A stretch of DNA of 42,038 nucleotides from positions 153,258 to 195,295 of IMG/VR virus record IMGVR_UViG_3300045921_000484, one strand, 5' to 3'. The notes under the pieces are model-generated. The model made no database searches. It was not told where the DNA came from and was given only the letters and a program-made list of their open reading frames with translations. The translations under genes were made by a program, and so were the position numbers. This DNA comes from a virus. Position 1 is the stretch's first letter. Every line of letters starts with the position of its first letter. Positions 2,230 to 36,147 of the stretch are shown here, piece after piece.

Positions 2230-2616
2230 ATGTTAAAGAGATATTCACAATTTATAAAAGAGGCTGATGAGACGGTAGAGAATAAAACTACTGATTCTAA
2301 TAAATTTACTGAATTCAAAGAGGAATTGAAATCTATGATTGAGAAAACTATTGAGAAATCAGGTGGTGAGTATAAATCATTTTTAGAATCATTTATAAAA
2401 AACCCAACAGATGTTAAAATTGAGGGATTGATAAATGACTCAGATATCTATGATTTTTACCTTAAATGGAGAAATGATATAGATGAAATATTAAATGATT
2501 CTAAATTCTTTGATGAGGTTCCGAGTGAGATTAACTCATTTGGATTATATGACTATATGATAAAAGGAACTCAGAGAGCTATTGAGGAAGCTGTTAAGAT
2601 GTTATCCTCTGTTTGA
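2230..2616 (+). CDS. Small acidic protein with capsid-targeting-like leader
   Basis: A 128-residue protein, mostly charged and helical, of unknown function. Its first residues, MLKRYSQFIKEADE, are very close to the T4 internal-protein targeting sequence (MKTYQEFIAEA), with an I-K-E that could be cut by a gp21-type protease. The same kind of leader starts about nine other proteins here. The gene has its own TTTAATATATA element exactly four bases upstream. Its 3' end overlaps the convergent P-loop gene by 15 bases. Inference: possibly an internal head protein injected with the DNA. No enzymatic motif is visible. Confidence 0.8.
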   Translation: MLKRYSQFIKEADETVENKTTDSNKFTEFKEELKSMIEKTIEKSGGEYKSFLESFIKNPTDVKIEGLINDSDIYDFYLKWRNDIDEILNDSKFFDEVPSEINSFGLYDYMIKGTQRAIEEAVKMLSSV

Positions 2617-3069
2617 TGATTCTCTTTTTACTGTAAATTTTTTACTTTTCTTAGAAGTTGCCAACATTTTCATTTTTGTTCCTTTACAAGCATCTATAAG
2701 TATTTTTGATGAAACATCAACCATTCTTAATGTATTATAGATTGCAATAACTTCAACTTTATAAAACAATTCAATATAGTCAAGGCTTCTGATTATATCT
2801 TTAAGACTATTTGATTTTATCCAATTTATTGAGTCTATAACAATAAATGATGTGTCTTCCTCAATTGCGAACTCGATATCGAGCATTATAGGTGAAGTGA
2901 TGTATTTATATTTTATTTTTGGACAAGAAAGTATTTTTCTTTCTAGCGACTTATCGTTATCTAGTGCAAAATATATAACTTTTTTATTTTTTAATGATGT
3001 CTGTTTTTTTGCTATCTCTAAAGCTAAAGATGATTTACCTGAACATCCTTCACCGAAAATTATAGTCAT
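2602..3069 (-). CDS. Small RecA-like P-loop ATPase
   Basis: A 155-residue protein with a Walker A motif GEGCSGKSS (residues 6-14) and a Walker B strand FIVIDS (75-80). The N-terminal strand-P-loop-helix order and the hydrophobic strand ending in Asp match the RecA/KaiC/DnaB-type ATPase core, here in a minimal form. The C-terminus is lysine and serine rich. The ATG overlaps the stop of the upstream membrane-protein gene as ATGA, so the two are probably translationally coupled. Whether it works in DNA replication, recombination or packaging cannot be told. It is shorter than RecA or UvsX, so it is not one of those. Confidence 0.75.
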   Translation of the reverse strand: MTIIFGEGCSGKSSLALEIAKKQTSLKNKKVIYFALDNDKSLERKILSCPKIKYKYITSPIMLDIEFAIEEDTSFIVIDSINWIKSNSLKDIIRSLDYIELFYKVEVIAIYNTLRMVDVSSKILIDACKGTKMKMLATSKKSKKFTVKRESSNRG

Positions 3070-3503
3070 ATGTATGATTTAATAATACTTAAAGTATCGT
3101 AATGTAAATGAAAATGATTTATTATTAAATACAAATATACTAAAAATTTCAGTATTATAAAATGAAGTATTGCTATCTTACCAAATGAAGTAAACTTTAT
3201 AGGTCTTATTAAAAATCCTATTATTATAGAGTAAATAAAAAGAAATAAGAAAATATACCAACTACCTGTTAGTAATCCACCAAGAGCCCACATAAATTCT
3301 ATAAAATTTAGAACAGATATACCTAAGAAAAGATTTAATTCTTCTTTTGATCTATAATCTTCTTTTTGAGGATCTTTTCCGGTTACATTTTTGAATTTCT
3401 CAACCCATTCACTTATAGATTGTATCTTTTTGAATCTTGATATATATGATATTATAGATATTAAAATGAACAGACCTATAGCGTAGTATATGTGACCTAA
3501 CAT
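3066..3503 (-). CDS. Multi-pass membrane protein of unknown function
   Basis: A 145-residue protein with hydrophobic segments at about residues 4-22, 60-77, 79-100 and 107-128 and a charged loop between the first and second (FKKIQSIS through YRSKEE). This predicts three or four transmembrane helices. No lysozyme or classical holin signature is seen. It is first in a two-gene leftward unit with the P-loop ATPase (ATGA overlap). A holin-like or membrane-anchor role is possible, but nothing in the sequence decides it. Confidence 0.7.
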   Translation of the reverse strand: MLGHIYYAIGLFILISIISYISRFKKIQSISEWVEKFKNVTGKDPQKEDYRSKEELNLFLGISVLNFIEFMWALGGLLTGSWYIFLFLFIYSIIIGFLIRPIKFTSFGKIAILHFIILKFLVYLYLIINHFHLHYDTLSIIKSYI

Positions 3504-3583
3504 TTTTTATTATTATTATTTTTTTTTATATGTGAAAACTTGACTTTGTTTAATCCTTTTTATTACAAACAGAAGTTGTGAAT

Positions 3584-3594
3584 AATTATATATA
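3584..3594 (+). promoter_or_regulatory. Degenerate TTTAATATATA-like element
   Basis: AATTATATATA lies 25 bases before the ATG at 3620, in the divergent gap between the leftward membrane-protein gene and the rightward structural genes. It is weaker than the other copies but sits in the second preferred distance class. Confidence 0.4.
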
Positions 3595-3619
3595 GTTAAT
3601 AAAATCTAATTAAAAATAA

Positions 3620-6403
3620 ATGGCCTCTACACCTCTGTATAAGTTTTTAAAGTCAAATGGTACATCATTTTATGCTTTTCCAGGAGCGGCTGAAGATATA
3701 TCTGCAGCATATCAGAATGAAAATTACAAAATGTATTTTTCAAAATATATATTGTTGAATTTTCCAAAACAACAACTTATTAATCTCGGTGGTACACAAG
3801 CAACTCCAATATATTGGAACTTTGATAATTTTAAGAAATCAAAAAATGCAACGCCTCCAACTAACTATTCTGAACAACTAATTGAGTCATTAAGAAACTA
3901 TGTTGCTAATCAAGAAGTGGTTATAAAAGAATCTAGATTAAATAATAGTGAATATTATTACGATAATAATGAACCTTATACACCAACCGAGAAAATATTT
4001 TGGAAGTGGTGTAAAAAGTTAAATCTTATAGATTTTGAACCAGCAACACCTGAAGATGAGTACTTTTCAAATCTTGCTGAATTTGCTAGTAGAAACCCAT
4101 TAGATGATACTTATTTTCCAGAATATCTTTGGAGAGAAAGAGAAGTATTTCCTTGGCCTATATACTCTTTCTATGAAAGTAATGTTATATCACAGAAGTT
4201 AGAGGTTCAATTTTTCTCAACAACTAATTTTAGAGTAGGTGATATTGTTAAATTCTCAAATGTTAGTAATGTGACTAATTATGAGATTCCTGGGATTGAG
4301 GAAGGTACATTACAAATGCAAGTTTTAAAAGTGATACCTGCTGGTGCTACACAAGGTCAAAAAGTTATTTTTGACCTTGATAGTGGTGATGGTGATTTTA
4401 TTTTAACTTCTGAGATATTAGAAACTACTGGTACTGCTGAATTGGTATATCATAGATTAGTTCAATATATTGGTGAGGTTAATGGTATTAATAATGTTCA
4501 GGAGGCTAATAGATCATATACTGAGGTATATGCTTTGATTCCTGACCATACTGGTAGAACGCCAGATGTACTATTTAGAATACATTCTGATAATAACTAT
4601 AAGCCAAATTTAGTATTTCCTATTATACCTAGTCAATATCAACCAGAGATTATAGGAGCCGAGTTATTTACATCACCAATAGTTAATACACCTCAAAATT
4701 ATCCAGGTAGTTATTTTGGTCATTTTGATACGGAAGACTATACATATGAATTATCTACCGGTGATATGATAAGAAGAAGCGGTGATTATTATGGTATAAA
4801 TGGTGATATAAATGCCCCTATTATAGACGGGTCGACAATTGATGGTGTTATAGTTGATTTTAACACAAATCACTATGTTAAAATGAATATTAATGGTGGA
4901 GTTTTAAGGACATTTGATCAATTTAATGCTCTTGAAGTTAATAATGAGCCACCAAAGGATTTTGATTTTAATGCTATATTATGGTATTATACAATAGAGG
5001 ATATTAACGGAAATGTTTCAACTAACCTTTATGGTATATCTTTCTTGGATCACCCAGATAACAACCCAGTTAATGAAGAAACTTCAATAAGACTTCCACT
5101 TTTCAAGAAGTTAGTTACTAATGGAATGCAAGATGGTACATCTTATGCGTTTAGTTTAAATCTGAGTTTCAACATTATCAATGAGAATCCACAGGATTCT
5201 TATAATCCTGAGGCTATTAATACTCTTTATAGCATGAATAACTTTAATGATGCTATGGCGAGATTAGCATCTATTAATGATAGCTTTCTTAATATACTCG
5301 CTGAACAAATTACAATAAAAGAAGAGATCGAGAATATAAGACAACTGTTATATACTCAAACTGATATTAATACATTAAATGCTAGAATGAAATATCTTGA
5401 AGGGTTACTTCAACTGTATAAAACAAATCAGATTCAAGATTCCGATAGTATAAAAGTTATTGTTGAACAATTACCAGACTTCTCATCATTGAAATTGGAA
5501 AACATAGATACTTCATATAAGCAGATTATTAAAATAAATACAACTGATTTATATACTACTCAAGGTATTATACCTATGAACATCAATGTTCCTGAGAATA
5601 AGAATTTTCTTATTCAAGTTACGAATAATGATGAAGTTGATATTACATTGCCTAATGAGGATAAATTAACAATCGTATTGGATAGAGATTTGGATTATAG
5701 ACAATCTTGTTACATTTTAGTTGATTCAAATGCTTTATCAACACAAAATAAAAAACTGGATATATATATTAAGTATATGGTTGATAGCTCAACACCGGAA
5801 GATGTGGAGAATGCTGGTTCAAATATTCAATCAAATGTTCCGGTTATTAATCCATTAGATAACTTACCAGTTGAAACACCTATTATTACTGATATAGATT
5901 TGCCAATATTTTATAATAGTGTTACTCAACAGCCTAATTTATCAAGTATAAGTAATAAGTTTAACTTTGACATTAATTTAAATCAACCTATAATATTAAA
6001 TGCAGGTAATATATTGGAGGTTCCTTTAAATGCTCATTATATGTTAGTAAATAACTCTATTAAACAGGGTGATACTTTAATGCTAAATGACTTCCAGGTT
6101 GGTACTACTTCAGTATTTAACTTCTCAGGTCAATATAGGGTTGATAGTGTTGGTGTTACCAATTCATATTTATACTTAGACATTAGTTCTAATTCTCAAT
6201 TAGTAGCTTATGGCGCAAGTGCTACACTTCCTAAATATATACATGACCCTATTGGTTATTATGGTACATATTCAACAGAGTTATCAAATATACCATATTT
6301 CACACTTAATAAGGGTTATAGATTTAAGATAACTAGAGTTGATGAGTCTAATAGTTCATCAATTGAGAATAGATATCTAATAGAAACCGAATATCTTATA
6401 TGA
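3620..6403 (+). CDS. Large virion structural protein, probably baseplate or tail
   Basis: A 927-residue protein with no recognised domain. The N-terminal third is rich in aromatic residues (YNYSEQL, WKWCKKLNLIDFEP, EYLWREREVFPWPIYSFYE), typical of large myovirus baseplate or neck proteins. A charged helical stretch at about residues 557-603 could form a coiled coil for trimerisation. The rest is beta-rich and Asn/Thr rich. It starts a rightward block of four virion-type genes ending in a tail fibre at 10430, which is the main reason for the structural call. No signal peptide or membrane segment is seen. Assignment to a particular T4 gene is not possible by eye. Confidence 0.7.
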   Translation: MASTPLYKFLKSNGTSFYAFPGAAEDISAAYQNENYKMYFSKYILLNFPKQQLINLGGTQATPIYWNFDNFKKSKNATPPTNYSEQLIESLRNYVANQEVVIKESRLNNSEYYYDNNEPYTPTEKIFWKWCKKLNLIDFEPATPEDEYFSNLAEFASRNPLDDTYFPEYLWREREVFPWPIYSFYESNVISQKLEVQFFSTTNFRVGDIVKFSNVSNVTNYEIPGIEEGTLQMQVLKVIPAGATQGQKVIFDLDSGDGDFILTSEILETTGTAELVYHRLVQYIGEVNGINNVQEANRSYTEVYALIPDHTGRTPDVLFRIHSDNNYKPNLVFPIIPSQYQPEIIGAELFTSPIVNTPQNYPGSYFGHFDTEDYTYELSTGDMIRRSGDYYGINGDINAPIIDGSTIDGVIVDFNTNHYVKMNINGGVLRTFDQFNALEVNNEPPKDFDFNAILWYYTIEDINGNVSTNLYGISFLDHPDNNPVNEETSIRLPLFKKLVTNGMQDGTSYAFSLNLSFNIINENPQDSYNPEAINTLYSMNNFNDAMARLASINDSFLNILAEQITIKEEIENIRQLLYTQTDINTLNARMKYLEGLLQLYKTNQIQDSDSIKVIVEQLPDFSSLKLENIDTSYKQIIKINTTDLYTTQGIIPMNINVPENKNFLIQVTNNDEVDITLPNEDKLTIVLDRDLDYRQSCYILVDSNALSTQNKKLDIYIKYMVDSSTPEDVENAGSNIQSNVPVINPLDNLPVETPIITDIDLPIFYNSVTQQPNLSSISNKFNFDINLNQPIILNAGNILEVPLNAHYMLVNNSIKQGDTLMLNDFQVGTTSVFNFSGQYRVDSVGVTNSYLYLDISSNSQLVAYGASATLPKYIHDPIGYYGTYSTELSNIPYFTLNKGYRFKITRVDESNSSSIENRYLIETEYLI

Positions 6404-6425
6404 ATCACACATTAGATTATAAAAT

Positions 6426-6465
6426 GACTATTTATTTTTAATATATAAATTAAAATTAAATAGTC
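6426..6465 (+). promoter_or_regulatory. Inverted repeat enclosing a TTTAATATATA element
   Basis: The arms GACTATTTA (6426-6434) and TAAATAGTC (6457-6465) are a perfect 9-base inverted repeat. The 22-base loop contains TTTAATATATA (6437-6447), which lies 22 bases before the ATG at 6470. It could be an operator, a leader hairpin, or the terminator of the preceding gene fused to the promoter of the next. Confidence 0.55.
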
Positions 6466-6469
6466 GTTT

Positions 6470-7609: not shown

Positions 7610-7626
7610 AAATTATATTTTATTAG

Positions 7627-8586: not shown

Positions 8587-8604
8587 GAAAAAAATTAATA
8601 ATTT

Positions 8605-8617
8605 TAAATAATATATA
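8605..8617 (+). promoter_or_regulatory. TAAATAATATATA element
   Basis: A variant of the recurrent element (core TAATATATA at 8609-8617), 22 bases before the fibre-gene ATG at 8640. This falls in the 20-25 base distance class. Confidence 0.5.
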
Positions 8618-8639
8618 GAATAGAAAAAAACACTACGAT

Positions 8640-10430: not shown

Positions 10431-10450
10431 TAAGGATATAAAAAAACCTC

Positions 10451-17107: not shown

Positions 17108-17118
17108 TTTAATATATA
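17108..17118 (+). promoter_or_regulatory. TTTAATATATA element, 4 bases before ATG (rightward)
   Basis: Perfect copy reading right, followed by AGTT and the ATG at 17123. With 17082-17092 it forms a compact divergent control region only 45 bases long. Confidence 0.62.
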
Positions 17119-17122: not shown

Positions 17123-18082
17123 ATGAAATTGAAAAAATATATTGACTTTATATCAGAGTCTGAGAAATTTAACTCATTGGGTGAATGGGTTGAGTCTTTA
17201 ATTGAAGATGATTATGTGAAAAACATAGTTGGTAGATACACAAAAGATATTAATCCTGGTATAGATCTATCAAATGCTATTAATATTCTTGATAAAAGAA
17301 CTCAATCTGAAATAAAATCACAAATTGAAGAATATCTACAAAATGGTATTAAAGACAAAGATCCTAATATAATTGTCTCAACTAATATAGAAGAATTAAC
17401 AGAGTCCGAAATCACAATGGCTGGTAAAGGAATATTTAGTTCATTCTTGAAGTCATTAACGGCTCTTGGTCAAAAAATGATCAATGCTAATTGGGAAAAA
17501 TGTCCTGATAATTTCCTTTTGTTTTATTATTATCCAAACTTGAATTCTATTGATGTTAAAAGTATATTTAATAGATTTAAGTCTTTATCGAGATATTCCG
17601 ATATGATTGATTACGGTAAAAATGAAGTTAACTTATACTATGGTGTTAGATGTGATGGCATTTTTGAATATGGTATAATTTATGATGATAAAACATCACC
17701 AATCGGAGAATTTAAGTTATCATCATCATCTATAAAATGGATAACAACATTAGAATCACAATCAGCTCACTCTCTTAAAAAAGAATTAGTGAATCTAACA
17801 TTATCTGATATAATTACTCTTGGTAGAATAAAAACAGATATGAAAGATTTTAATCCTGGATATCATGAAAAGAAATTAGCTCCTATTTTAAAGGATAAGG
17901 TTATTTCATTTGGATATTATGGTGTTGGTAGATGGGATAATGGTAAGTTAGATGAGGGTGAGTTTATTAATATTAAAACAAATTTTACCAATTGGTTACT
18001 TTCTAAAAGGTGGGGTAGTAAAGTTTTAATAAGTGTTAAACCACAATCATTTTGGTTATACATACATATTAAATTAAAATAA
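17123..18082 (+). CDS. Unknown protein with capsid-targeting-like leader
   Basis: A 319-residue protein. It begins MKLKKYIDFISESEKF, matching the shared leader, with an I-S-E where a T4 gp21-type protease could cut. The rest is unrecognised: a helical region (to about residue 110), a hydrophobic/Gly stretch (MAGKGIFSSFLKSLTALGQK), then a mixed alpha/beta region. The promoter-like element is exactly four bases before the start. It heads a rightward run of small unknown genes reaching to 21607. It is possibly an injected internal protein; no catalytic motif is recognised. Confidence 0.75.
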   Translation: MKLKKYIDFISESEKFNSLGEWVESLIEDDYVKNIVGRYTKDINPGIDLSNAINILDKRTQSEIKSQIEEYLQNGIKDKDPNIIVSTNIEELTESEITMAGKGIFSSFLKSLTALGQKMINANWEKCPDNFLLFYYYPNLNSIDVKSIFNRFKSLSRYSDMIDYGKNEVNLYYGVRCDGIFEYGIIYDDKTSPIGEFKLSSSSIKWITTLESQSAHSLKKELVNLTLSDIITLGRIKTDMKDFNPGYHEKKLAPILKDKVISFGYYGVGRWDNGKLDEGEFINIKTNFTNWLLSKRWGSKVLISVKPQSFWLYIHIKLK

Positions 18083-18099: not shown

Positions 18100-18272
18100 A
18101 TGAATAAGATAAGAAGATTTAATGAGTCTAACGAGTCTAATAACGAATCTTTAAAATTACAGGCTTATAAATATATTGAAAATAAATCTTGGGTTAATCA
18201 TCTTTAGAAGGTGGTAATCAAAGTTATAAAGAAATATATACAGAATTTCCTAAAACAAATAAAAAAAAATAA
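18100..18272 (+). pseudogene. Small leader-bearing gene with apparent -1 frame break
   Basis: ATG 18100 encodes MNKIRRFNESNESNNES, a member of the leader family, and stops at TAG 18205-18207 after 35 codons. The -1 frame continues from the same point (reading LEGGNQSYKEIYTEFPK) to TAA 18270-18272, eight bases before the next gene's ATG. Adding one T to the CTTTAG run would restore a single frame of about 57 codons. It may be a decayed gene, a recoding site or a one-base sequence error. Confidence 0.5.
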
Positions 18273-18279: not shown

Positions 18280-18834
18280 ATGAAATATTTAAGAAAATTT
18301 AATGAGAATTATTCTGACTTGGAAAAGGAAGAACAAGAAAAGGCTAAAAAAACTGCTATTTCTAACTCACCTTATTTACAGAAAAAAGAAGCTGAGAAAA
18401 GAAAAAATAGATTAGAAAAATCATATAAGGAAGATCCTGATGGTATGTATCCAAGAGATACCGATGACAAAATAGATGATATTACATCAAGAGGTTGGCA
18501 AAATGGAATGGGCGAACCACCTTGGTTAAGTGAGTCTAATGTAGAATTTGACGTTGAATTTGCTATAACTAAAATAAAAGATAAATTTAGCGAGGATGAG
18601 GTAAACATCTTATTTGATAACGAGTTACTTGAATGGGTCGATCCAGATTGGTCAGACGAGTATGATTCCGAATATGATTGGTATGTTGAACATAACAATG
18701 GAGAAGCCCAAGATGTTGTTATTGATCAACTAATTGATTGGTATATGAAAGAATATGGTGAAATATCAGTTGATGAACAAATTGAGTTAAAGGATCGAAT
18801 TAAAAAAGAATATGATGTTTTAAACTATTATTAA
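18280..18834 (+). CDS. Acidic unknown protein with short leader
   Basis: ATG 18280 is chosen over a GTG at 18211 because it gives the leader-type N-terminus MKYLRKFNENYSDLEKE and because the upstream codons overlap the end of the preceding small gene. The protein has 184 residues: a Lys/Glu-rich helical first part, then a very acidic, Trp/Tyr-rich second part (EWVDPDWSDEYDSEYDWY). No family is recognised. The acidic composition could mimic DNA or bind a basic protein, but this is a guess. Confidence 0.72.
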   Translation: MKYLRKFNENYSDLEKEEQEKAKKTAISNSPYLQKKEAEKRKNRLEKSYKEDPDGMYPRDTDDKIDDITSRGWQNGMGEPPWLSESNVEFDVEFAITKIKDKFSEDEVNILFDNELLEWVDPDWSDEYDSEYDWYVEHNNGEAQDVVIDQLIDWYMKEYGEISVDEQIELKDRIKKEYDVLNYY

Positions 18835-18869: not shown

Positions 18870-19328
18870 ATGACCCAAAGTGCAGATGACTTTAAGAAAC
18901 AAGCTTTAGATAAATGGGTACACATACTTAATTCGATGGGTGTTACTGGTAGTAAATCTGATTGGATGTCTCAATATGTTAATGAAGATTTCCTAAAACA
19001 ACCACAACAAGAATTTCCTTCAATTTTACCAATGTCTATGTCTATTGCAATGGATTTAGTTTCAGTTCAACCTATGAAAGGATCGGGTGGTACCTCAAAA
19101 GAAGAAATGGAAAGAATTAAAGCAGAAATAAAGGCAGAAAATCGTGATAGTAAAATAGACTCTATTATCGAAGATACTGACTATACGGAGAAGAAAATAG
19201 AAGAACATCCTGATTATAAAGGTCCTGAAATGTTATTCTATTTTGATTATAGATACGAAAATTCTACATCATCTTCTATTGATAATGAGGATAATTCAAT
19301 ACTTGGTAAATTAGGTAGAGGATTATGA
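18870..19328 (+). CDS. Unknown soluble protein
   Basis: A 152-residue protein. The N-terminal 45 residues are helical (ADDFKKQALDKWVHILNSMGVTG). The middle has a Met/Ser-rich segment (PMSMSIAMDLVSVQPMKGSGG), followed by a charged Lys/Glu helix and an acidic C-terminus. No recognised domain. It belongs to the rightward small-gene run. The last codons overlap a possible 30-codon frame as ATGA. Confidence 0.68.
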   Translation: MTQSADDFKKQALDKWVHILNSMGVTGSKSDWMSQYVNEDFLKQPQQEFPSILPMSMSIAMDLVSVQPMKGSGGTSKEEMERIKAEIKAENRDSKIDSIIEDTDYTEKKIEEHPDYKGPEMLFYFDYRYENSTSSSIDNEDNSILGKLGRGL

Positions 19329-21204: not shown

Positions 21205-21215
21205 TTTAATATATA
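21205..21215 (+). promoter_or_regulatory. TTTAATATATA element, 20 bases before ATG
   Basis: Perfect copy. It decides the start of the next gene: transcription from it would exclude an upstream CTG/ATG-type start at 21152. Confidence 0.6.
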
Positions 21216-21679: not shown

Positions 21680-21861
21680 CTAATTTCCAATATCATAATC
21701 TTTAATCATCATTATGATGTATTTACTCAATTGGTTTATTTGTGGTTGAATATTAACTTTTAGTCCTAAAGAGATATTTCTCTAAGTATCAATTTTAGTT
21801 TAATCTTCCGGTCCTTTTTATTTTTAAATGATTCGTTAAATTTTACCAAATTTTTAATCAT
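21680..21861 (-). pseudogene. Leftward leader-bearing small gene with apparent -1 frame break
   Basis: ATG 21861 encodes MIKNLVKFNESFKNKKD and stops at TAG (21768-21766) after 31 codons. The -1 frame carries on from the same place (LGLKVNIQPQINQLSKYI) to a stop at 21682-21680, giving about 60 codons in all. The break is at TCTTTAG, the same seven bases as in the small gene at 18100. A perfect TTTAATATATA stands four bases before the ATG. The rest of the 21608-21922 gap holds only AT-rich sequence. Confidence 0.5.
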
Positions 21862-21865: not shown

Positions 21866-21876
21866 TATATATTAAA
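21866..21876 (-). promoter_or_regulatory. TTTAATATATA element, 4 bases before ATG (leftward)
   Basis: Perfect copy, followed by GAAT and the ATG at 21861. It is the main evidence that the broken small gene is or was expressed. Confidence 0.58.
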
Positions 21877-23719: not shown

Positions 23720-24805
23720 TTAAACGATAAATCTATAATCCTTAATTAAACCTCTTAATTCTTCTTCACTTTTAGGCTTGCCTATTTGGTCTAGAAAATA
23801 GATTAATCTATCAAGAATAATGGAATCCCCTTGAATAATATCCATATCATTAAATAATTCTATTTTATCTTTATCCCTGAATAAATTCCATATTTGATAG
23901 ACTAAATTATTACTACAGTAGAAATCTCCAACAATTGATTCCGGAGCACCTTCTAGTGAAGTTAGGTTGTTATTAGAACACCAGAATTCACTACCAACCC
24001 ATTTAGGACTGCCTTCTAGTGAAGTTAGGTTGTTATAGCAACAGTCAAAATCACCACCAACCGATTTAGGACTGCCTTCTAGTGAAGTTAGGTTGTTATA
24101 GGAACACTCGAAATTACCACTAACCGATTCAGGGCCGCCTTCTAGTGAAGTTAGGTTGTTATTGGAACAGATGAAATCACCACCAACCGATTTAGGGCTC
24201 CCTTCTAGTGAAGTTAGGTTGTTATTGTTGCAGTAGAAATTACCACCAACCGATTTGGGACTGCCTTCTAGTGAAGTTAGATTGTTATTGGAACAGTCGA
24301 AATAATCACCAATTGATTCGGGTGAACCTTCTAGTGAAGTTAGATTGTTATTGGAACAGTCGAAATAACCACCAATCCATTCTGGACTCCCTTCTAGTGA
24401 AATTAGATTGTTATTACGACACTCGAAATAACCACCAACCGATTTAGGACAACCTTCTAGTGAAGTTAGGTTGTTATTGTAACAGTTGAAATCTCCACCA
24501 ACCGATTTAGGACTGCCTTCTAGAGAGGTTAGTTTGTTATTGTCACAGTAGAAATTCCCACCAACCGATTCAGGACATCCTTCTAGAGAGGTTAATTTGT
24601 TATTGTGACAGATGAAATTACCGATAACATTTCTAAATTTAATGGGTAGTTTATCTAATCCTTTACCGGATAGATTGACATCACCATCTACATCAATAGA
24701 TCCATCACTATTTATAGTACAGTTCTCTATACCATATTCCTTACATATCAACTCAATATCTCCCCCGGTAGATTCAAATAATCTATATTGAATTAGGTGT
24801 TTCAT
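23720..24805 (-). CDS. Leucine-rich-repeat protein with 11 repeats and leader
   Basis: ATG 24805 is preferred over 24808 because it places the start exactly four bases after TTAATATATA and gives the leader MKHLIQYRLFES. After an adaptor region (DGSIDVDGDVNLSGKGL), eleven 21-residue repeats of the form LTSLEGSPKSVGGDFxCxNNN follow, then a 60-residue helical cap (IWNLFRDKDKIELF to GLIKDYRFIV). The repeats would form a curved solenoid with one cysteine per turn in line. The next gene upstream is a five-repeat copy with nearly the same ends. LRR proteins of this kind bind other proteins; the target is unknown. The leader suggests packaging in the head. Confidence 0.85.
   Translation of the reverse strand: MKHLIQYRLFESTGGDIELICKEYGIENCTINSDGSIDVDGDVNLSGKGLDKLPIKFRNVIGNFICHNNKLTSLEGCPESVGGNFYCDNNKLTSLEGSPKSVGGDFNCYNNNLTSLEGCPKSVGGYFECRNNNLISLEGSPEWIGGYFDCSNNNLTSLEGSPESIGDYFDCSNNNLTSLEGSPKSVGGNFYCNNNNLTSLEGSPKSVGGDFICSNNNLTSLEGGPESVSGNFECSYNNLTSLEGSPKSVGGDFDCCYNNLTSLEGSPKWVGSEFWCSNNNLTSLEGAPESIVGDFYCSNNLVYQIWNLFRDKDKIELFNDMDIIQGDSIILDRLIYFLDQIGKPKSEEELRGLIKDYRFIV
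23906..24595 (-). repeat. Eleven tandem 63-base repeats coding LRR units
   Basis: The DNA repeats as well as the protein: a block reading CTTCTAGTGAAGTTAG (plus strand) recurs every 63 bases with few changes. Such units can expand or contract by recombination. Confidence 0.85.
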
Positions 24806-24809: not shown

Positions 24810-24820
24810 TATATATTAAG
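24810..24820 (-). promoter_or_regulatory. CTTAATATATA element inside the upstream gene's stop
   Basis: The element contains the TAA stop of the upstream LRR paralogue and is followed by GATG and the preferred ATG 24805. It allows the second LRR gene its own start signal although the genes are only a few bases apart. Confidence 0.55.
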
Positions 24821-25520
24821 TTACAAATCTATAACCCTTAATAACCCTTCTTAATTCTTCTTCACTTTTAGGCTTGCCTATTTGGTCTAGAAAATCGATT
24901 AATCTATCAAGAACAATTGAATCCCCTTGGATAATATCCATATCATTAAATAATTCTATTTTATCTTTATCTCTAAATAAATTCCATATCTGTTCTACTG
25001 GATTATATTGACAGTAGAAATCTCCGCCGATTAATTCCGGAGCACCTTCTAGTGAAGTTAGTTTGTTATTGAAACATTTGAAATCTCCACCAACCCATTT
25101 AGGACCACCTTTTAGTGAAGTTAGGTTGTTATTGTAACAGTAGAAATTACCACCAACCGATTTAGGACTCCCTTTTAGTGAAGTTAGGTTGTTATTGTAA
25201 CAGTCGAAATAACCACCAATTGATTCCGGTGCGCCTTCTAGTGAAGTTAGATTGTTATTGGAACAGTAGAAACCATCACCGACACATTTAGGACTGCCTT
25301 CTAGAGAAATTAGTTTGTTATTGTAACAGTCGAAATTACCACTTACGTTTTTAAATTTAAGAGGTAGTTTATATAATTCTTTACCGGATAGATCAACATT
25401 ACCATCCACATCAATAGATCCAGCTTCATTTATAGTAAAATTTTGTATACTATATTTCTCACAGATAGATTCAATATCCTGATTAGACTCAAATAATCTA
25501 TATTTAATTAGGTGTTTCAT
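24816..25520 (-). CDS. Leucine-rich-repeat protein with 5 repeats and leader
   Basis: Paralogue of the gene directly downstream. ATG 25520 gives MKHLIKYRLFESNQD, four bases after a perfect element. The adaptor and the C-terminal cap (IWNLFRDKDKIELFNDMD onward) are nearly identical to the neighbour, but only five 21-residue repeats lie between. Two repeats read LTSLKG instead of LTSLEG, and one Cys-bearing turn reads SPKCVGDG. It probably arose by tandem duplication followed by repeat loss or gain. Confidence 0.85.
   Translation of the reverse strand: MKHLIKYRLFESNQDIESICEKYSIQNFTINEAGSIDVDGNVDLSGKELYKLPLKFKNVSGNFDCYNNKLISLEGSPKCVGDGFYCSNNNLTSLEGAPESIGGYFDCYNNNLTSLKGSPKSVGGNFYCYNNNLTSLKGGPKWVGGDFKCFNNKLTSLEGAPELIGGDFYCQYNPVEQIWNLFRDKDKIELFNDMDIIQGDSIVLDRLIDFLDQIGKPKSEEELRRVIKGYRFVT
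24999..25313 (-). repeat. Five tandem 63-base LRR repeats
   Basis: Same 63-base unit as at 23906-24595, five copies. The high identity between the two arrays makes this segment prone to unequal recombination. Confidence 0.85.
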
Positions 25521-25524: not shown

Positions 25525-25535
25525 TATATATTAAA
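25525..25535 (-). promoter_or_regulatory. TTTAATATATA element before the first LRR gene
   Basis: Perfect copy with GATG before the preferred ATG 25520. A palindromic TTTAATATATATTAAA also lies just upstream at 25545-25560. Confidence 0.6.
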
Positions 25536-25625: not shown

Positions 25626-26720
25626 CTAAACAACGGTTAAGAAGATTTTTCTATTCATTCTATCTACTGATAGAACTTTCACTTTAATCTCTTGACCAGG
25701 TGTGAATTTTTTATTTAATTTCTCCATTTCCGAAGTGTGAATAAGACCAACAGTTTCATCATCAAGATTAACTAGAGTTCCAAATTGTTTTATTTCTCTA
25801 ACAACACCTTTAAGTATTTGATTATTCTTGATGTTATCCCAAAGAGTTTCTCTTAGAACTTGAGTAAGGATAATTTTATCCTTAATAACTTCTTTAATGT
25901 AGAATTCAATATTGAATCCTGGTTTAATAGAAGTTAATTTTTCTTGCCACTCTGGATTCACATTAGCTTTGTGAATCATACCAGTTAAACACTCGTTGAA
26001 TTCAACGAATATACCGAAAGGTGTTGTACCAGTAACGTGACCACTGTAAACTTCACCATATTTTAACTGATTAATAGCAGATGGAATAAGGCTTTGAAGA
26101 TACTTACGTCTACTAACAATATAAGTTCCTTCTTGTTCAGCAAATGACTCAATCATAACTTCAAATGTTTTTCCAACAATTGAATTAGGGTCATAAAGTT
26201 TATTGATGCCGGCTAAGGTGTTTGGCATAAATCCGGGAAGTGTTACACCACCATAAGACAATTCAACATCATATCCAGCTGGGTTAATTGATTTAATAAA
26301 AGCTTCTACTGATTGTCCCTCTTCAAGAGATTTAAGATTTTGATGAGCTCTTGACTCGTATAGTTCAGCAATGCTTCCTCTGATAAAGAAGTTTTGTTGG
26401 TTTATTTTAGATATCAATACATCAATAAAATCACCAACATTTGAGTTTTTAAGGTATTTTGCCTCAGAAGCTTTGTTGTCTACTCGGATGTCATCTTTGA
26501 ATCCTTCCACGCTAAATACAAATGAACCTCCTGATAGTCCTTCGTATTTAGCGGAAATTACTTCACCTTCAACTGGAACTCTAACAGAGTATAAGTTGTA
26601 AAGCTTTAGTAGATCTTCTTTCTCTTTGCTTTCAAAAGAGGTTCCTTTTTTTACTTTTTTAGAATAATCTTCGCTTTCAAAAGCGAAAGCTGATTCTGGG
26701 TTTCCGATTGTTTCTGTCAT
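25626..26720 (-). CDS. Ribosomal protein S1-like RNA-binding protein, four S1 domains
   Basis: A 364-residue protein with four OB-fold S1 modules at about 48-115, 128-206, 222-287 and 300-364. The third (GHVTGTTPFGIFVEFNECLTGMIHKANV) and fourth (GVVREIKQFGTLVNLDDETVGLIHTSEM) show the classic S1 pattern; the first two are diverged. Bacterial S1 has up to six domains and helps load mRNAs that lack a good Shine-Dalgarno sequence. A phage copy could favour viral mRNAs or replace host S1. It is preceded by a small hairpin and ends at a strong terminator. No nuclease domain (as in RNase E or PNPase) is attached. Confidence 0.88.
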   Translation of the reverse strand: MTETIGNPESAFAFESEDYSKKVKKGTSFESKEKEDLLKLYNLYSVRVPVEGEVISAKYEGLSGGSFVFSVEGFKDDIRVDNKASEAKYLKNSNVGDFIDVLISKINQQNFFIRGSIAELYESRAHQNLKSLEEGQSVEAFIKSINPAGYDVELSYGGVTLPGFMPNTLAGINKLYDPNSIVGKTFEVMIESFAEQEGTYIVSRRKYLQSLIPSAINQLKYGEVYSGHVTGTTPFGIFVEFNECLTGMIHKANVNPEWQEKLTSIKPGFNIEFYIKEVIKDKIILTQVLRETLWDNIKNNQILKGVVREIKQFGTLVNLDDETVGLIHTSEMEKLNKKFTPGQEIKVKVLSVDRMNRKIFLTVV

Positions 26721-26757: not shown

Positions 26758-26783
26758 GAAAAAAATTAGAAGTTTAAGGTTAA

Positions 26784-30900: not shown

Positions 30901-32221
30901 CATCTTCTTTAACTATATTGTGATATTTACCATCAATTTCTATTAGCCAAACATCGGCTTTGTCAAAGTCAGGTATACTAAAATATGAGTAATCACTATA
31001 TCTTATAATATAATTGTCTTTGTCAAAAAGACAGATATTTTTATTCAGATAGGATTCTTTACCAGATAAGCTTATATCACTTACTATTCTATATCTATAA
31101 ATATCTGTAGTTATAAACTCTTCAGATGATACAGTACTTTTTCGATTGATTGATGTATTTACTTTACCAATAGTTCTAGGTTGAGTTTCTTTATATTGCT
31201 CAATTTTATAAAAATCACCTAAATATTCAACATAGTATTCTTTTTTTGAAAAATCAAGGTCTGATTTATTATCATCAAATGGATAGTTAGAGGTGTGTGA
31301 TTTTAATGTATTAGTAGAATCTATATATACGTCACTCTTTAATTTAACTGTTAAGTATGGTGATATTGATGTTACTAAATCCATATCATCTAAATAAAAA
31401 CCATAATATCTATTTATGCTCCATTTTCTAAGTGATGTCTTAGTTGCTGGAGTATCATCAAAAAGGAAAGACATATTTAATATATTTGGAAACACTACTC
31501 TATTTTTAGCGTATCCATCAAATATAAACTTCTCTAAATCGAAAATGGCATTCTCATATTCAAATACATCATTCATAAAGAATGATTTATATGTATATCC
31601 ACCTGTATCATAATCGATACCAAACCATTTAGTAAACTCATCTTTTCTATAATCTACCTCTAATGGTGTATCAGGGAAAAGATCATTTCTAAGGAAGTTC
31701 TTTTCTATCCATTCTCCTAATGGTGAATTCTTTGTTAGGTCAAATATTTTAACACACTTCAATTTATTAATTATTTCACTTTTAAAGTTATCCTTAGTTA
31801 GATCAATTAAACCAGGACCATCTACTCGGAATATTGCAAAATATTTTGGAAAAGATCCTTTTGCAAAGTAAATAGGAGCGAAGAATTCATATTCCTCTTT
31901 ATAGTTTTTATTATCAATAATATTCCTAGCACCCATTAAATACATATCATCATATTGTTCATTATAATTAGAAAACATGTTATCATTATCATTATTGTAT
32001 CTAATGGAAAAAGCTATCTCAGTTGGTAGATTTTTGAAAAAATAAGGAACCATTTCATCAAAATAGTTCTCTTTATTAAACCTAACTTTTTTAAATTTAT
32101 TAGATGATAGTTCTGGAGCAGAGTCAATACTATCCATGAATAGATCATAGTTACTACCAACCACTATTTTCATATTGGTTGTTAATCCAGTATTTGTCCT
32201 TAGTATTGAGAATGATTTCAT
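27902..32221 (-). CDS. Giant tail/baseplate protein with CBM5/12-like repeats
   Basis: A 1,439-residue protein. The N-terminal 870 residues and C-terminal 340 residues are unrecognised, Tyr/Asn/Asp-rich and mainly beta. Between them (about residues 878-1092, bases 28945-29585) lie about four copies of a chitin-binding type module: W-x-x-x-x-x-Y-x-x-x-x-x-V-x-Y-x-x-x-x-Y, then P and a final W, best seen in LWNFNKTYIFGDIVVYNN. These match carbohydrate-binding family 5/12 and would let the tail tip grip cell-surface glycans. It is the middle gene of a three-gene unit with single-base or four-base overlaps on both sides. Confidence 0.75.
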   Translation of the reverse strand: MKSFSILRTNTGLTTNMKIVVGSNYDLFMDSIDSAPELSSNKFKKVRFNKENYFDEMVPYFFKNLPTEIAFSIRYNNDNDNMFSNYNEQYDDMYLMGARNIIDNKNYKEEYEFFAPIYFAKGSFPKYFAIFRVDGPGLIDLTKDNFKSEIINKLKCVKIFDLTKNSPLGEWIEKNFLRNDLFPDTPLEVDYRKDEFTKWFGIDYDTGGYTYKSFFMNDVFEYENAIFDLEKFIFDGYAKNRVVFPNILNMSFLFDDTPATKTSLRKWSINRYYGFYLDDMDLVTSISPYLTVKLKSDVYIDSTNTLKSHTSNYPFDDNKSDLDFSKKEYYVEYLGDFYKIEQYKETQPRTIGKVNTSINRKSTVSSEEFITTDIYRYRIVSDISLSGKESYLNKNICLFDKDNYIIRYSDYSYFSIPDFDKADVWLIEIDGKYHNIVKEDDKLKVNTDYGFDFLIDKYSYYINQPDKSYTTTVSLLVDKDNAPKKFKIYRINFTDIKDFDTSIVDTEFSKYEYEKVDELTKTDETKMYLPDLRTNSFPYDLDDYVYKGEVTNIPVSSEYTANLETFRIVSNDLSEIWRKNPIYCRWGFQNSLSANDYPYLLNNSNIFEEYNRTVNPFQPIPSRIERNLDYFYTINSSTSSYSHHSLHVEDHIGDYINTSFRFDLGLYLNTSTYSVGTQSMTYSSDYFSYFFSKKTKFQNGKVIKNTKKYSTFNRGDFDTPNISLFRGIKFSIFDIENIKYEDGKITNINLVTSNKFEDYKLSILLSDNKKPSVTTTCYSFQTYIPGGWRDQLVEDLTNPPLALTSEYIFEINNGDSDKILVGDLLSITSSCISLSNVYVGSTYQLGNSLLISLMDEDENPISITSSCSGNVCVSNTSLSNKMNWLIVDNWDSRQSYESNSIVVHDDILYVAATAHGPINSISNNILAPYSYTSVWSPSQFVSPTSSILWNPNYDASYTDGYVIYNSGEYYKYDSSGTVSLWNPYSTYATNSVVIYKGEYWISKVGNNTHRPSTVTSRMTDIDTTSNYFNQYWEKTSGYESMSRWKIVSLWNFNKTYIFGDIVVYNNTVYRCITTSVNYLPTNTLYWSRVCSIDPDTNIVYDSDTNPVILLNDKYYIIKSNETRSTLENGINIYINKKWKNILINIAINDNTIKNISGADRDDLYGFALYQRNLKYTKNGLKSPINSKLTAVNLINCINDITNRYGFTDYLNYVIINEDGSINTYNYQNMVGLPHLIKCDFPDEFNVRVDSLKHEVVEVPNNLLKSNKQLKGGIIDNIDNLNYYNGLPLSYKISRKEEFRVSDKEPQRVLVKNTHGLVNTVYNNVYRHSGYYMPIFYEIELFERPGLTTSLYGNYKFDTSLTNFGKIKQRIISKVNPNKNIMKLKDRKDYKSIYPMLDEFGYAIIDFFIFKSTWDYKYHIECSDNINTNSIGNNNLSIEQ

Positions 32222-35200
32222 TATGTAATTGACATGTTTATTGGTGTAGCTACTTTTTTAAGTACTACTTTGCTTCTATTTATATTAAACTTAATTGAGA
32301 ATTGAAAAGGTTTGTTTTCAGATTCATTTTCAACAAAGAATTTAAGTTTCTTTATATGTTTAATGGTACTTGTAGATGAGTTCAAATCAATATATTCATA
32401 ATTTAATCCACCTTGACTTGGATCAAGCGCATTCATTTTGAAGTAGATATTTATAGGTATTACAATCGATTTATCATCACCTCCATTTAAAACTTTTATT
32501 TTATCAGCATTTGTTTCTGTTATATCCTCTAAATTTGGAACAACAGGATGAATTGTGGTTAATAGTTTAGATGTTGAAGCAACACTCACTGTTGTATCAA
32601 TCCATTTCTTAGTATCTAATAGTGATTTATTATTACCAACAAAAGATAATATAGATGTTTCATTATATCCAATATTAAACTCGTTGGATGCTAATACCGA
32701 AGTTATTGAGTTATTATTATTTGCTATAAAATTATTATTTATATTTTCAGATAACTTAGTTACAACAGTATCAGTTACACTTTCGAAGTTAACACTCCAT
32801 ATAAATTGATTATTCAACTGAGTTCTTGTCTGACCAGTTGATGAAGATGATAATAATTCATCCTTGTCATTTACCCAGAATACTTGTGGTGCACCAGCAT
32901 TATAAATATCAGAATTTGAATTATAAGTCCTATTTGATAATAAACCTAGTGGTGAATCAACAGACTTATTTCTAATCTTTAATACAAAGTCTTTTATTAC
33001 ATAAATATTGTTTGCATAAATTCTACCCGCTTGAACTTGTCTAGTGTTAGCAGAACCTATAAATCTTTCTAAGTAATCTTCACATTCTATATTGAATGAT
33101 AATTCAGATCCATTTTGAACAACAAATTCTTGGTTATTCCTAAGTACAATAATTTCAAGCTCACCTTTAGCTCTTTTAATTTTCTCCTCAAGTGATATTA
33201 TTCTGTCTTGAAGACTTTTCAAATAATCAAATAAACTAAGAGATACACCATTAGCATCTTTGAATCCTGATAGAATCTTTGTTGTATCATGATGATAAGT
33301 TACATTATTAACAACTATCGTTCCTGATAAGTGGTTGTCTAAACCTTTAGCTGATAACTCTTGATTCATTCTAACTTTTAGCTCTTCTTTAGTGGCTTCT
33401 TGTAAAATAAAGTCATTTTCATTAACAACATTATTAAGATCATCTGGAAATTCAACTGTAAGAATCTCTGACCAATCAGATTCAACCGGTGATTCTGGCC
33501 AACCAACTTCTGAAATAGATTTAATTCTTATCTCAATTTTTTCATTTGGCTGTATTGGTATATCCAATTGATTGATATTTGGAGTGTCTGCATTTTCAAT
33601 ATCCTCAATCTCCCAAGTATATGTTCCAGTAGATGGATTAAATGTTCTCTTTCTAGCATCAGTTTTGAATTCTATCCAGTTAGAATATGCTGCGTTTTGA
33701 CTAGTTCCTTGATTATTAGAAACTCTGAATGTTTCAGTTGGTGTTTCTCTACCATCTTTAGACAAATATCTATATTGTATTCTAAACTGAACAATCTCTT
33801 GAGGAAATGTACCTCTTGTTACAATAGCTTCAGGCATTGGCCAGAAACCTCTAACTCTAAACTTAGGCTCAACTTTAGTTAGACCAGGTCTTTTAGAGAT
33901 ATCAATTATCTCTTGAGTTATAGATGCTAGTAATTTCGATTTACTTTCTCTCTTTTTACTAAGAGATTCTATTTCTAAGTTGATCTGTTTTTTGTCAGCT
34001 TCGGAAGTGAATCTTAAAACTTTATCCTTTTTATTCTTTGACTCAATAGCATCATTTATCTGAGTAATTTCAGATTTTAATGAATTCATTAAGTTATGCT
34101 TTGTCTTAATTAAATTAGCATCGGGTGTATCAGTTAAATGCTTATTAATCTGGACAACTTTGAAGTTTGATATATTTAAAGTTGGTGGTGTTGGAGTACC
34201 CGCTAATTTATTAGGTGTCTTCTTAGCAACAAGGTCTTTTAAAACTTCACCATAATCATATACATAATCGATATAGTACTGTTCCATAGTTAGACCATTA
34301 TCGTTACTACTAGATGATAATCTAAGATCATTTGTCCAATATCCTGTACCTAAGCTCCAATTTTTAGCAACCAAATGATTATCAGCATTTATTGGTTTGA
34401 TGAAAAGGACATTTCTCTCATTATAACCTATACTAACTCTTATTTTCTTAGTATAAACGATTGGAGAATACATTTTAATAGTACCTATTCCAATTGGAAT
34501 TGGTTGATTACCTTCTATTCTCTCGAATCTAACTCTGTAATTTGATTCAACTGTTGATACCTCAATTACTTTATATCTTGTGCTAGATATTTCAGCATTT
34601 AACATCACTTCATCACCTTGTGATAATTGTCTAACTTCATTTGTTTCAGTTACAAGATAATCAAGTGTATTTAAGTGATACCATAGTTTTCTATTAAGTC
34701 TATCTTCTTCTGTTTTTAAAACAGAGAATACCCCATCATATAATAAAGAATTTGGTTCCAAGTCAAATACTTGTTCGTCATAATTAGGATTTAATGGTTC
34801 AACAACACCAGGTGTTGTTCTGTGCCAAATAACAAAATCATCAATGTTGATGTTTGCTTTTCCTCTAAATTCTTGATTGAAGCTATTTAGAGCTGACTGA
34901 CCAAGTGGTGTTAAATTTCCTGCCTCATCTTTTGCAAAATCAACGATATATCTTCTTACTAAACACTTTCTAACATTGTTTTCTATTTTACCAGTTAGAT
35001 CCAATTCAATAGACAATAGTGGATTTAATAATCCATCAAATATCCAGTTTTTACTTGATTTAAAGCTATCTACAATTTGAAGTTCATTTAGACTAGCAGG
35101 TTCTTTATTCAAATCAACAGTAACAACTTTCTTAAACTTATTAATACCAGCCGCAGTTTGTATAAGAGCTCCATTGCTATTATCAATATTATAAATGGAG

Positions 35201-35418
35201 TTAACATTATTATTTAATCTATCAATTTCATTCTTTAAGAAATTAAATGATGGAAGTGTATATTGTTTCAAAACACCTTCCTCATCAATGATTGATACGT
35301 TTACAGTTGACTCTGTTGTTGTAGAAAGAGTGTTTATTTTAGATAAAATTTCTACTAAATTTTTATTAAATGTTATTATTTGTTCTGCTACTGATGGAAA
35401 TGAGCTTCTTGCTGGCAT
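32221..35418 (-). CDS. Large baseplate-type protein with Fn3-like domain and coiled coils
   Basis: A 1,065-residue protein. A coiled coil at about residues 426-506 (Lys/Glu-rich, with SLSKKRESKSKLLASITQE) is followed by a fibronectin type III-like region (about 510-640: IQYRYLSKDGRETPTETF, then a WIEF strand and IEIRIKSISEVGWPESP). A second short coil is at about 729-757. The rest is beta-rich and unrecognised. Size, Fn3 and coils fit a baseplate hub, wedge or tail-fibre network protein. Its stop shares one base with the next start (TAATG). A TTTAATATATA element lies 21 bases before the ATG. Confidence 0.72.
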   Translation of the reverse strand: MPARSSFPSVAEQIITFNKNLVEILSKINTLSTTTESTVNVSIIDEEGVLKQYTLPSFNFLKNEIDRLNNNVNSIYNIDNSNGALIQTAAGINKFKKVVTVDLNKEPASLNELQIVDSFKSSKNWIFDGLLNPLLSIELDLTGKIENNVRKCLVRRYIVDFAKDEAGNLTPLGQSALNSFNQEFRGKANINIDDFVIWHRTTPGVVEPLNPNYDEQVFDLEPNSLLYDGVFSVLKTEEDRLNRKLWYHLNTLDYLVTETNEVRQLSQGDEVMLNAEISSTRYKVIEVSTVESNYRVRFERIEGNQPIPIGIGTIKMYSPIVYTKKIRVSIGYNERNVLFIKPINADNHLVAKNWSLGTGYWTNDLRLSSSSNDNGLTMEQYYIDYVYDYGEVLKDLVAKKTPNKLAGTPTPPTLNISNFKVVQINKHLTDTPDANLIKTKHNLMNSLKSEITQINDAIESKNKKDKVLRFTSEADKKQINLEIESLSKKRESKSKLLASITQEIIDISKRPGLTKVEPKFRVRGFWPMPEAIVTRGTFPQEIVQFRIQYRYLSKDGRETPTETFRVSNNQGTSQNAAYSNWIEFKTDARKRTFNPSTGTYTWEIEDIENADTPNINQLDIPIQPNEKIEIRIKSISEVGWPESPVESDWSEILTVEFPDDLNNVVNENDFILQEATKEELKVRMNQELSAKGLDNHLSGTIVVNNVTYHHDTTKILSGFKDANGVSLSLFDYLKSLQDRIISLEEKIKRAKGELEIIVLRNNQEFVVQNGSELSFNIECEDYLERFIGSANTRQVQAGRIYANNIYVIKDFVLKIRNKSVDSPLGLLSNRTYNSNSDIYNAGAPQVFWVNDKDELLSSSSTGQTRTQLNNQFIWSVNFESVTDTVVTKLSENINNNFIANNNNSITSVLASNEFNIGYNETSILSFVGNNKSLLDTKKWIDTTVSVASTSKLLTTIHPVVPNLEDITETNADKIKVLNGGDDKSIVIPINIYFKMNALDPSQGGLNYEYIDLNSSTSTIKHIKKLKFFVENESENKPFQFSIKFNINRSKVVLKKVATPINMSIT

Positions 35419-35439
35419 AGTTTAGCTATTAATTTTTCT

Positions 35440-35450
35440 TATATATTAAA
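35440..35450 (-). promoter_or_regulatory. TTTAATATATA element, 21 bases before ATG (leftward)
   Basis: Perfect copy that would drive the three large tail genes and probably the UVR and S1 genes beyond. Confidence 0.62.
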
Positions 35451-35513
35451 TTCTACTCATTTCTTTAGTATTTGTTTTTTTTTATTTTTATATAGGATTG
35501 CTTTCTAATAAAT

Positions 35514-35546
35514 AAAAAAACCCTCAAATTTCTCTGAGGGGTTTTA
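35514..35546 (-). terminator. Intrinsic terminator with T-run
   Basis: CCCTCA (35521-35526) pairs with TGAGGG (35535-35540). On the minus strand the stem is followed by a run of seven T. It overlaps the stop codon of the gene at 35544 and closes that transcript before the tail-gene promoter. Confidence 0.85.
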
Positions 35547-36017
35547 TGATTCTACTTCAACTACATATTGACCGTGGTAAGTTTTGAAATCCGGTTTTCT
35601 CATAACTGTTATAACAGTTAATTTAAACTCATTATCACCCGGTTCTAATTGACAAACAACATTTATATTATTTGTCTTATTCTTTATAACAAATCTGTTT
35701 GGTTCACCAGCTTTAACGCCCTTTGTTGGATAATCATCTTCATTCTGATAAATATCAAATTTATTCTGCATTAAAGCTATTGTGATTTCTTCTATTGCTA
35801 ATTCTATCGTTTCAATTATATCATTATCTGATATAACTTCATCTTTCATACCACCATGTCTAAATTGTCTATCAGTAGCATGTTGTATCTTTTCAATATC
35901 TATTCTTATCTCAACAGGCTCTTTAAGATATCCAATACTCTTAGGAGCTTTAAATGACATAGCTTTTCTATCAATATACCCACGAGTGAATCTTTCAAAT
36001 GTTCTTAGATGATTCAT
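35544..36017 (-). CDS. Unknown protein with leader-like start
   Basis: The frame can be extended to a TTG at 36032, but ATG 36017 is preferred, giving MNHLRTFERFTRGYIDRK, close to the shared leader. The 157-residue protein has a His/Arg-bearing segment (IQHATDRQFRHGG), a helix (NDIIETIELAIEEITIALMQ), then four or five beta strands ending VITVMRK. This order is loosely like phage-associated BECR-fold (barnase/RelE-like) proteins, but I would not call it so without a structure search. It ends in a strong terminator. Confidence 0.68.
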   Translation of the reverse strand: MNHLRTFERFTRGYIDRKAMSFKAPKSIGYLKEPVEIRIDIEKIQHATDRQFRHGGMKDEVISDNDIIETIELAIEEITIALMQNKFDIYQNEDDYPTKGVKAGEPNRFVIKNKTNNINVVCQLEPGDNEFKLTVITVMRKPDFKTYHGQYVVEVES

Positions 36018-36147
36018 TAGTAAATTTTCCAATTTTTATATGTATAACATTAGAGATATTTATTATGGTCTTATCGCAAACCTCAACTTTGAGTTCTAAA
36101 ACCTCAGGTTAATTAAACCTGAATTCTTCATATAATTTATATCTCAT
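35995..36147 (-). pseudogene. Leader-bearing small gene interrupted by an in-frame stop
   Basis: ATG 36147 starts MRYKLYEEFRFN and meets TAA at 36111-36109. The same frame then stays open for 37 codons (PEVLELKVEVCDKTIINISN onward) and ends at TGA inside the start of the 36017 gene. A promoter-like TTAATATATA lies five bases upstream. The internal stop sits in a hairpin (TCAGGTT-TAATT-AACCTGA). It may be a nonsense-inactivated gene or a short upstream peptide. Confidence 0.42.

Follow-up and report, generated by a model that had tools for sequence, protein, structure and literature searches.

T-even phages carry internal head proteins (IPs) that have only their leader in common (PMC12373910, PMC3012670); at least 10 have been reported, and Ip1-3 inhibit GmrSD enzymes (PMC12373910). 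In T4, this leader is the capsid-targeting sequence (CTS) of IPI-III and Alt, and it is cut by gp21. In phiKZ, SPN3US, and 201phi2-1, an S77 protease likewise removes N-terminal propeptides by cutting after Glu, in 201phi2-1 at TFE (PMC5694885), and N-terminal residues direct the DarB protein of phage P1 into the head (PMC9024508). Here, we describe a leader that is probably of this kind in the virus record IMGVR_UViG_3300045921_000484, starting from its positions 153,258-195,295 (the window, 42,038 nucleotides), which form the terminal 42 kb of the 195,295-base fragment. The leader is a basic/aromatic N-terminal segment of 9-14 residues.

The likeness to the T4 CTS that a sequence-only reading of the window had proposed is borne out by comparison: the leader MKTYQEFIAEA on IPII and IPIII in the T4 record has the same form as the leaders found here. 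In both cases, a short N-terminal leader is carried by unrelated proteins, late in T4 and putatively late here; about half of the present leaders also have the [IL]-x-E end, and at the genome level the likeness extends to a gp21-type protease, a gp23-type major capsid protein (MCP), and a gp20-type portal. Unlike T4, with its 3 IPs, and the T-evens, with the at least 10 reported, the 642-kb relative LR756502 has about 100 leader genes; the leaders are of several sub-types (F[IVL]xE, [ILV]FE, FNE, and xFE), the cargo includes enzymes and leucine-rich-repeat (LRR) proteins, and the scaffold, part of a fusion protein with the protease, contains repeats of the leader-like motif. The propeptides of phiKZ, SPN3US, and 201phi2-1 differ in being mostly >100 residues long, in occurring on few proteins, and in their [AS]-x-E sites, although the TFE site of 201phi2-1 resembles our x-F-E sub-type. 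DarB, which we liken by description and not by sequence, has a signal of 30 residues that was described for one protein. We consider it likely that the leader serves as a T4-type capsid-targeting propeptide, which would provide for docking, cleavage, head packaging, and delivery with the DNA. The new part is the scale, about 100 leaders per genome; the open-access literature that we searched did not describe leaders like these in huge phages.

The fragment (29% GC) is incomplete as a genome, and its genes were called by a simple open reading frame (ORF) rule; genome coordinates equal window coordinates + 153257. The comparison phages were sampled as 50-kb stretches, and LR756502 was analyzed whole. 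The MCP of the fragment (genome 4622-6313, minus strand) shares 77% identity with that of LR756502, 76% with that of LR745206, and 52% with that of LR756501 (735 kb), all of them huge uncultured phages, and ~28% with those of Lak and Tenacibaculum phages. Judged by its capsid gene, the fragment is derived from a huge T4-like phage.

The leader is real and occurs far above chance. A crude leader rule selected 43 of the 240 genes of the fragment, compared with 11 of 813 internal Met positions. The genome-wide profile search that the sequence-only reading had called for was run with a hold-out profile trained solely on the ten window leaders. Outside the window, it recovered 24 of 191 genes of the fragment vs 7 of 679 internal ATG (1.0%; p = 3e-11), and it recovered 101 of 1002 genes in LR756502 vs 15 of 2720 controls (0.55%; p = 2e-43), as well as 6 of 58 vs 2 of 258 in 50 kb of LR756501. 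The same profile remained near control level on the stretches of Lak-B1, T4, crAss001, phi14:2, and MA9V-2, and gave 2 of 58 vs 0 of 213 on that of PTm1. A larger profile identified 103 leaders in LR756502 (10.3% of its genes; control 0.33%; median length 157 aa), with about 3-6 false matches expected per 1000 genes. One high-scoring match (LR756502 450156-451064) is probably false, as it resembles a conserved N-terminus belonging to a glycosyltransferase-17 protein.

We also searched IMG/VR with an exact DNA pattern for MKH-L/I-K/R-x-FNE-S/T (also written MKH[ILVMF][KRQNSH]xFNE[STRC]), using the same codons permuted as a control. The pattern was found at 98 sites in 87 stretches, with 45 body clusters, compared with a single stretch for the permuted control. 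Bacterial and archaeal genomes (257 Gb) yielded 7 matches to the MKH...FNE pattern, mostly very short frames or positions inside a longer frame, and none was a convincing leader-gene start; equal frequency in host genes, which the sequence-only reading had raised as a counterargument, was thus not observed. A pattern of the T4 form, MKT[FY]xxFIxE[AS], matched at least 120 IMG/VR stretches (66 unrelated body clusters among the matches listed) vs 1 for its permuted control. T4-type leaders are thus common, and the window leaders would be a divergent, strongly expanded form of them. On one contig with this pattern, the leader stands on a protein that is HAD-like by eye.

When the LR756502 leaders are aligned on the terminal Glu (P1), positions -8 to -1 are rich in information, P1' has a moderate amount, and almost none is left from +3 onward. 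Ser occupies P1' in 40 of the 103 leaders (background 8%), although P1' played no part in their selection. Four sub-types can be distinguished, namely, F-[IVL]-x-E (MLKRYSQFIKE, MKLKKYIDFISE), [ILV]-F-E (MKHLIKYRLFE), F-N-E (MKYLRKFNE), and x-[FY]-E (MNHLRTFE). At P3, 49 of the 103 leaders have I/L/V (background 24%) and 32 have F/Y/M (12%). The leaders end in a candidate site of the cleavage type, of which the strict [IL]-x-E form occurs in only about half of them. The synonymous codons of the leaders are near the genome average, so it is the peptide itself that is kept. An AlphaFold2 (AF2) model of the protein encoded at 17123 (9-sequence alignment, mean pLDDT 77) places residues 1-14 and 77-99 below a pLDDT of 50, with a low-confidence helix at residues 2-11, and in a leadered ortholog of the portal-adjacent gene at genome 10997, residues 1-7 fall below 50 and the body reaches about 90. 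By these models, the leader is a separable unfolded tail. Neither of the two modelled proteins had a convincing match in the PDB by fold search; the 10997 model had a single viral match, of unknown function.

Orthologs change around the candidate cleavage site in a particular way. In the 17123 family (the window gene, the 8 orthologs in IMG/VR, and the one in LR756502), P3 I and P1 E are constant, P2 is S, K, or N, and indels start directly after the leader. A second [IL]-x-E-[SN] lies within the low-confidence AF2 loop (residues 77-99) in 9 of 9 sequences (LTES three times, INES, LLES twice, LGES twice, and LLEN), with 0.05 expected per 25 residues; these orthologs are mutually related and the nine are not independent events, the point being the change of P2 under a fixed P3 and P1. 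In the 2230 family, IKE is found in the window, in LR756502, and at three of the four IMG/VR loci, LTE at the remaining one, and the linker after the leader is indel-rich. I/L and E are thus invariant and P2 is free in both families. Pairs of leaders from the fragment and LR756502 (ILE/ISE, VNE/LNE, LNE/LTE, IKE/INE, VNE/INE, and ISE/IKE) behave likewise. This pattern supports the leader end as a putative cleavage site.

A gp21-type protease, whose presence the sequence-only reading had made a test of its proposal, was found outside the window. PHROGs searches identified the head maturation protease (phrog_207, 1.6e-29), the major head protein (phrog_138, 1.5e-27), and the portal (phrog_213, 3.4e-60), and a tail sheath gene is also present, which marks the head as T4-like; a search with Pfam PF03420 matched neither the fragment nor 14 control genomes and is hence uninformative. 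The protease gene (genome 6396-8474, minus strand) encodes a 692-aa protein in which the protease is fused to a tail of about 11 YSEY[IL]AENLDKNI repeats, and this protease-scaffold fusion is conserved in 88 relatives. Ten N-termini of the proteome carry the motif [YFW]xx[FYW][ILFV]xE (0.9 expected), and the protease-scaffold protein has 11 copies of it, compared with 22 other internal copies (13.5 expected over all internal positions). Leader and scaffold repeat would thereby appear to share a docking/cleavage motif. INE/N at residues 41-44 of the MCP is a putative cleavage site (the slash marks the cut). The Chryseobacterium phage MA9V-2 has a 1207-aa protease-scaffold fusion rich in [IFL]NES, and the leaders MKTFTYFINEA and MKNFFSFINEA are found on two genes near its fusion gene and head genes.

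The leader genes also share an upstream box. In the fragment, TAATATATA or TTATATATA was found within 70 b upstream of 32 of 48 leader genes, from a list curated by eye, and of 45 of 192 other genes (p = 5e-8); the latter include the genes for the MCP, protease, portal, and sheath. The result was replicated in LR756502 with profile-defined leaders (50 of 103 vs 141 of 899, p = 5e-13), and the TAATATATA box is present in 12 of 12 IMG/VR orthologs of 17123 and 2230. Because of the genes it precedes, we infer that the box is a late promoter, which would lend indirect support to production of the leader proteins during head assembly. Its distance from the start codon is just 13 b in many genes and about 30 b in others; were it a -10-type element, transcripts of the former genes would be nearly leaderless.

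Modularity, another element of the sequence-only reading, is evident in LR756502, whose 103 leader proteins fall into 88 unrelated body clusters; the 195-kb fragment encodes homologs of only 19 of these 103 bodies. Within LR756502 1-50000, small genes follow one another in runs, and each combines its own leader (MKHLKKYNES, MKYLKKYKIFES, MKHLKTYE) with a different body, which makes up an accessory-gene island. The gene at genome 10997-11473, next to the portal, has 42 orthologs in two forms. The leadered form begins with M[KR]H[LI]RKFEEL-xYSTY and has the TAATATATA box; the leaderless clade starts exactly at residue 10 (M[NKR]YSTY) and has a Bacteroidota-type TAnnTTTG promoter in place of the box, so that leader and box were both lost or never present. 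Phages without a leader on this gene carry leaders on other genes. In the tree of the 42 orthologs, one leader change suffices, so that this family gives no evidence of repeated leader swapping on one body. Some leader proteins, such as this portal-adjacent family, may be head-core proteins.

Few domains were found by Pfam among the leader proteins. In the fragment they are LRR, ankyrin, and GNAT; a HAD-like protein (IFDFDDTL right after the leader) and an isochorismatase-like protein were recognized by reading and were not confirmed by Pfam, and the leader of the HAD-like pair is kept in both the fragment and LR756502. The cargo of LR756502 includes T4 RNA ligase 1, SET, DHH, and GH16, and, among the 108 proteins scanned, also methyltransferase, GNAT, HNH, and PPK2. 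PADLOC matches to leader proteins were few and weak, except for one mad2. These cargo types (LRR, GNAT, SET, DHH, T4 RNA ligase 1, and HAD-like), together with the T4 precedent, are consistent with an effector role. T4 RNA ligase 1 repairs tRNA cut by the host anticodon nuclease.

In the window itself, the leader was seen at all 10 starts that the sequence-only reading had listed (Table 1). Its description of about ten unrelated proteins holds in part: seven are real genes of 123-361 aa and three are remnants of 12-35 codons, and the genes at 24805(-) and 25520(-) are LRR genes that are paralogs of each other. The ORFs at 18100, 21861(-), and 36147(-) are probably eroded leader genes, because they have only 35, 31, and 12 codons and the upstream box is kept at two of them (21861- and 36147-). 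Directly downstream of the leader gene at 18280, a 152-aa protein (18870-19328, plus strand) resembles the MCP of the same phage in its N-terminal arm (BLAST E 1e-8), without the shell domain.

Table 1. Leader starts and upstream boxes in the window (window coordinates; a slash marks the candidate cleavage site)
Feature	Position	Strand	Evidence
Leader gene MLKRYSQFIKE/ADETVENK..., 128 aa	2230..2616	+	leader and orthologs
Leader gene MKLKKYIDFISE/SEKFN..., 319 aa; second candidate cleavage site LTE/S, residues 92-95	17123..18082	+	AF2, orthologs
Leader remnant MNKIRRFNE/SNESNN..., 35 codons	18100..18207	+	
Leader gene MKYLRKFNE/NYSDLEK..., 184 aa	18280..18834	+	LR756502 ortholog MKYLRRYNE/D
Leader gene MRYIKNFSVFE/SNKIYAN..., 123 aa	21236..21607	+	
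Leader remnant MIKNLVKFNE/SFKNKK..., 31 codons, with box	21766..21861	-	
Leader gene MKHLIQYRLFE/STGGD..., 361 aa, leucine-rich repeats	23720..24805	-	
Leader gene MKHLIKYRLFE/SNQD..., 234 aa, leucine-rich-repeat paralog	24816..25520	-	
Leader gene MNHLRTFE/RFTRGY..., 157 aa; weaker case, P1' = R	35544..36017	-	
Leader remnant MRYKLYE/EFRFN, 12 codons, with box	36109..36147	-	
Late-type box TAATATATA at -13 of 2230 gene	2217..2225	+	kept in orthologs
Late-type box TAATATATA at -13 of 17123 gene	17110..17118	+	
Late-type box TAATATATA at -29 of 21236 gene	21207..21215	+	
Late-type box TAATATATA at -13 of 31-codon remnant	21866..21874	-	
Late-type box TAATATATA at -13 of 24805(-) gene	24810..24818	-	
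Late-type box TAATATATA at -13 of 25520(-) gene	25525..25533	-	
Late-type box TAATATATA at -14 of 12-codon remnant	36153..36161	-	

Other features of the window were assigned by eye. The 3' part of a long protein with MORN-like GxWYNGxW-type repeats lies at 86-2200 (plus strand; the gene start precedes the window), a protein with several S1 RNA-binding-like domains, resembling ribosomal protein S1, at 25626-26720 (minus strand), and an M16 (insulinase-type) peptidase-like protein with an N-terminal-proximal HLMEH motif at 38615-39727 (plus strand).

In the mechanism that we propose, proteins made late would carry the 9-14-residue basic/aromatic tail and dock through it on the scaffold core as the prohead grows. 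The gp21-type protease, fused to the YSEY[IL]AE-repeat scaffold, would then cut after the terminal Glu of the leader, so that the mature cargo would stay behind in the head and enter the cell together with the DNA. The cargo bodies would be exchangeable, with, on current counts, about 10% of the clade's genes (about 100 in 642 kb) carrying the address. A particle may accordingly bring about a hundred different proteins into the bacterium, some ten times as many as are known for T4. The discrete leader, its enrichment and modularity, the conservation of [ILV]-x-E, the protease with its scaffold repeats, and the shared box are computed results; that the leader proteins dock, are cut, are present in virions, are injected, and act as effectors is what we infer from them. 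Several points weigh against this proposal. MA9V-2 has a protease-scaffold fusion yet few leaders in the 50 kb sampled, and the first 50 kb of PTm1, which has a T4-type MCP, likewise contain few; the repertoire of leaders is therefore a property of the clade. Twenty of the 103 LR756502 leaders are x-[FY]-E, lack a hydrophobic P3, and fall outside the T4 consensus. The window-trained profile alone does not recognize the T4 leaders, being near control on the T4 stretch, and for the link to T4 we therefore rely on the F-I-x-E sub-type together with the protease and the pattern of the site. Finally, we found no virion proteomics for this clade in the literature.

A first alternative is that the leader proteins belong to the head core or scaffold and that their leaders act as prohead-protease propeptides; most of them would be assembly parts, cut and then either retained in the head or released from it, and not injected effectors. 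In its favor, two leader genes (genome 1947 and 10997) flank the portal/MCP cluster, and the scaffold repeats resemble the leader. However, the 88 unrelated bodies among 103 leaders, including enzymes (RNA ligase 1, SET, DHH, GNAT, and GH16), the tandem arrays of small variable genes, and the mere 19 of 103 bodies shared with the fragment amount to accessory-gene behavior, and we regard the alternative as unlikely. Even less probable is some other localization signal, such as an amphipathic membrane anchor or a signal for entry into a replication compartment, with Glu merely marking its end. The leader is basic and amphipathic, and the low-confidence AF2 helix at residues 2-11 of 17123 would suit such a role, whereas [ILV]-x-E with a free P2, Ser at P1', and the second [IL]-x-E-[SN] fit a protease and not a membrane helix.

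The shared 5' end could also be a by-product of a duplicated promoter/start cassette that encodes a functionless peptide. Leader and TAATATATA box do travel together, the leaderless 10997 clade has a different promoter type as well, and eroded leader-plus-box remnants exist. Against this, synonymous codons in the leaders are near the genome average, P2 varies while P3 and P1 stay, and about half of the LR756502 leader genes have no box, which makes a cassette origin very improbable. Chance production of M-K-rich starts in an AT-rich genome, to which the 29% GC lends some plausibility, is refuted by the internal-Met controls, the codon-permuted DNA patterns, and the other phages (including crAss001 and phi14:2), and we give it practically no weight.

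For most huge-phage genes, no function has been assigned. Should the leader be a head address, sequence alone would suffice to tell, by means of a 10-residue profile, which of their products enter the cell with the DNA, and what huge phages inject would become directly testable. There would then be hundreds of candidate early counter-defense proteins, as well as a portable tag to load proteins into phage heads. The leader sub-types may sort cargo by protease site or by position in the core. With somewhat less than even confidence, we suggest that huge T4-like phages mark ~1/10 of their genes with a head address, each particle being loaded in advance with on the order of 100 different, freely exchangeable effectors. 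Such effectors would include RNA ligase, SET, DHH, GNAT, LRR, and many unknown folds, an arsenal on the scale of a secretion system delivered with the DNA. The T4-like form of the leader is common among viruses from the environment, so the rule may extend well past this clade.
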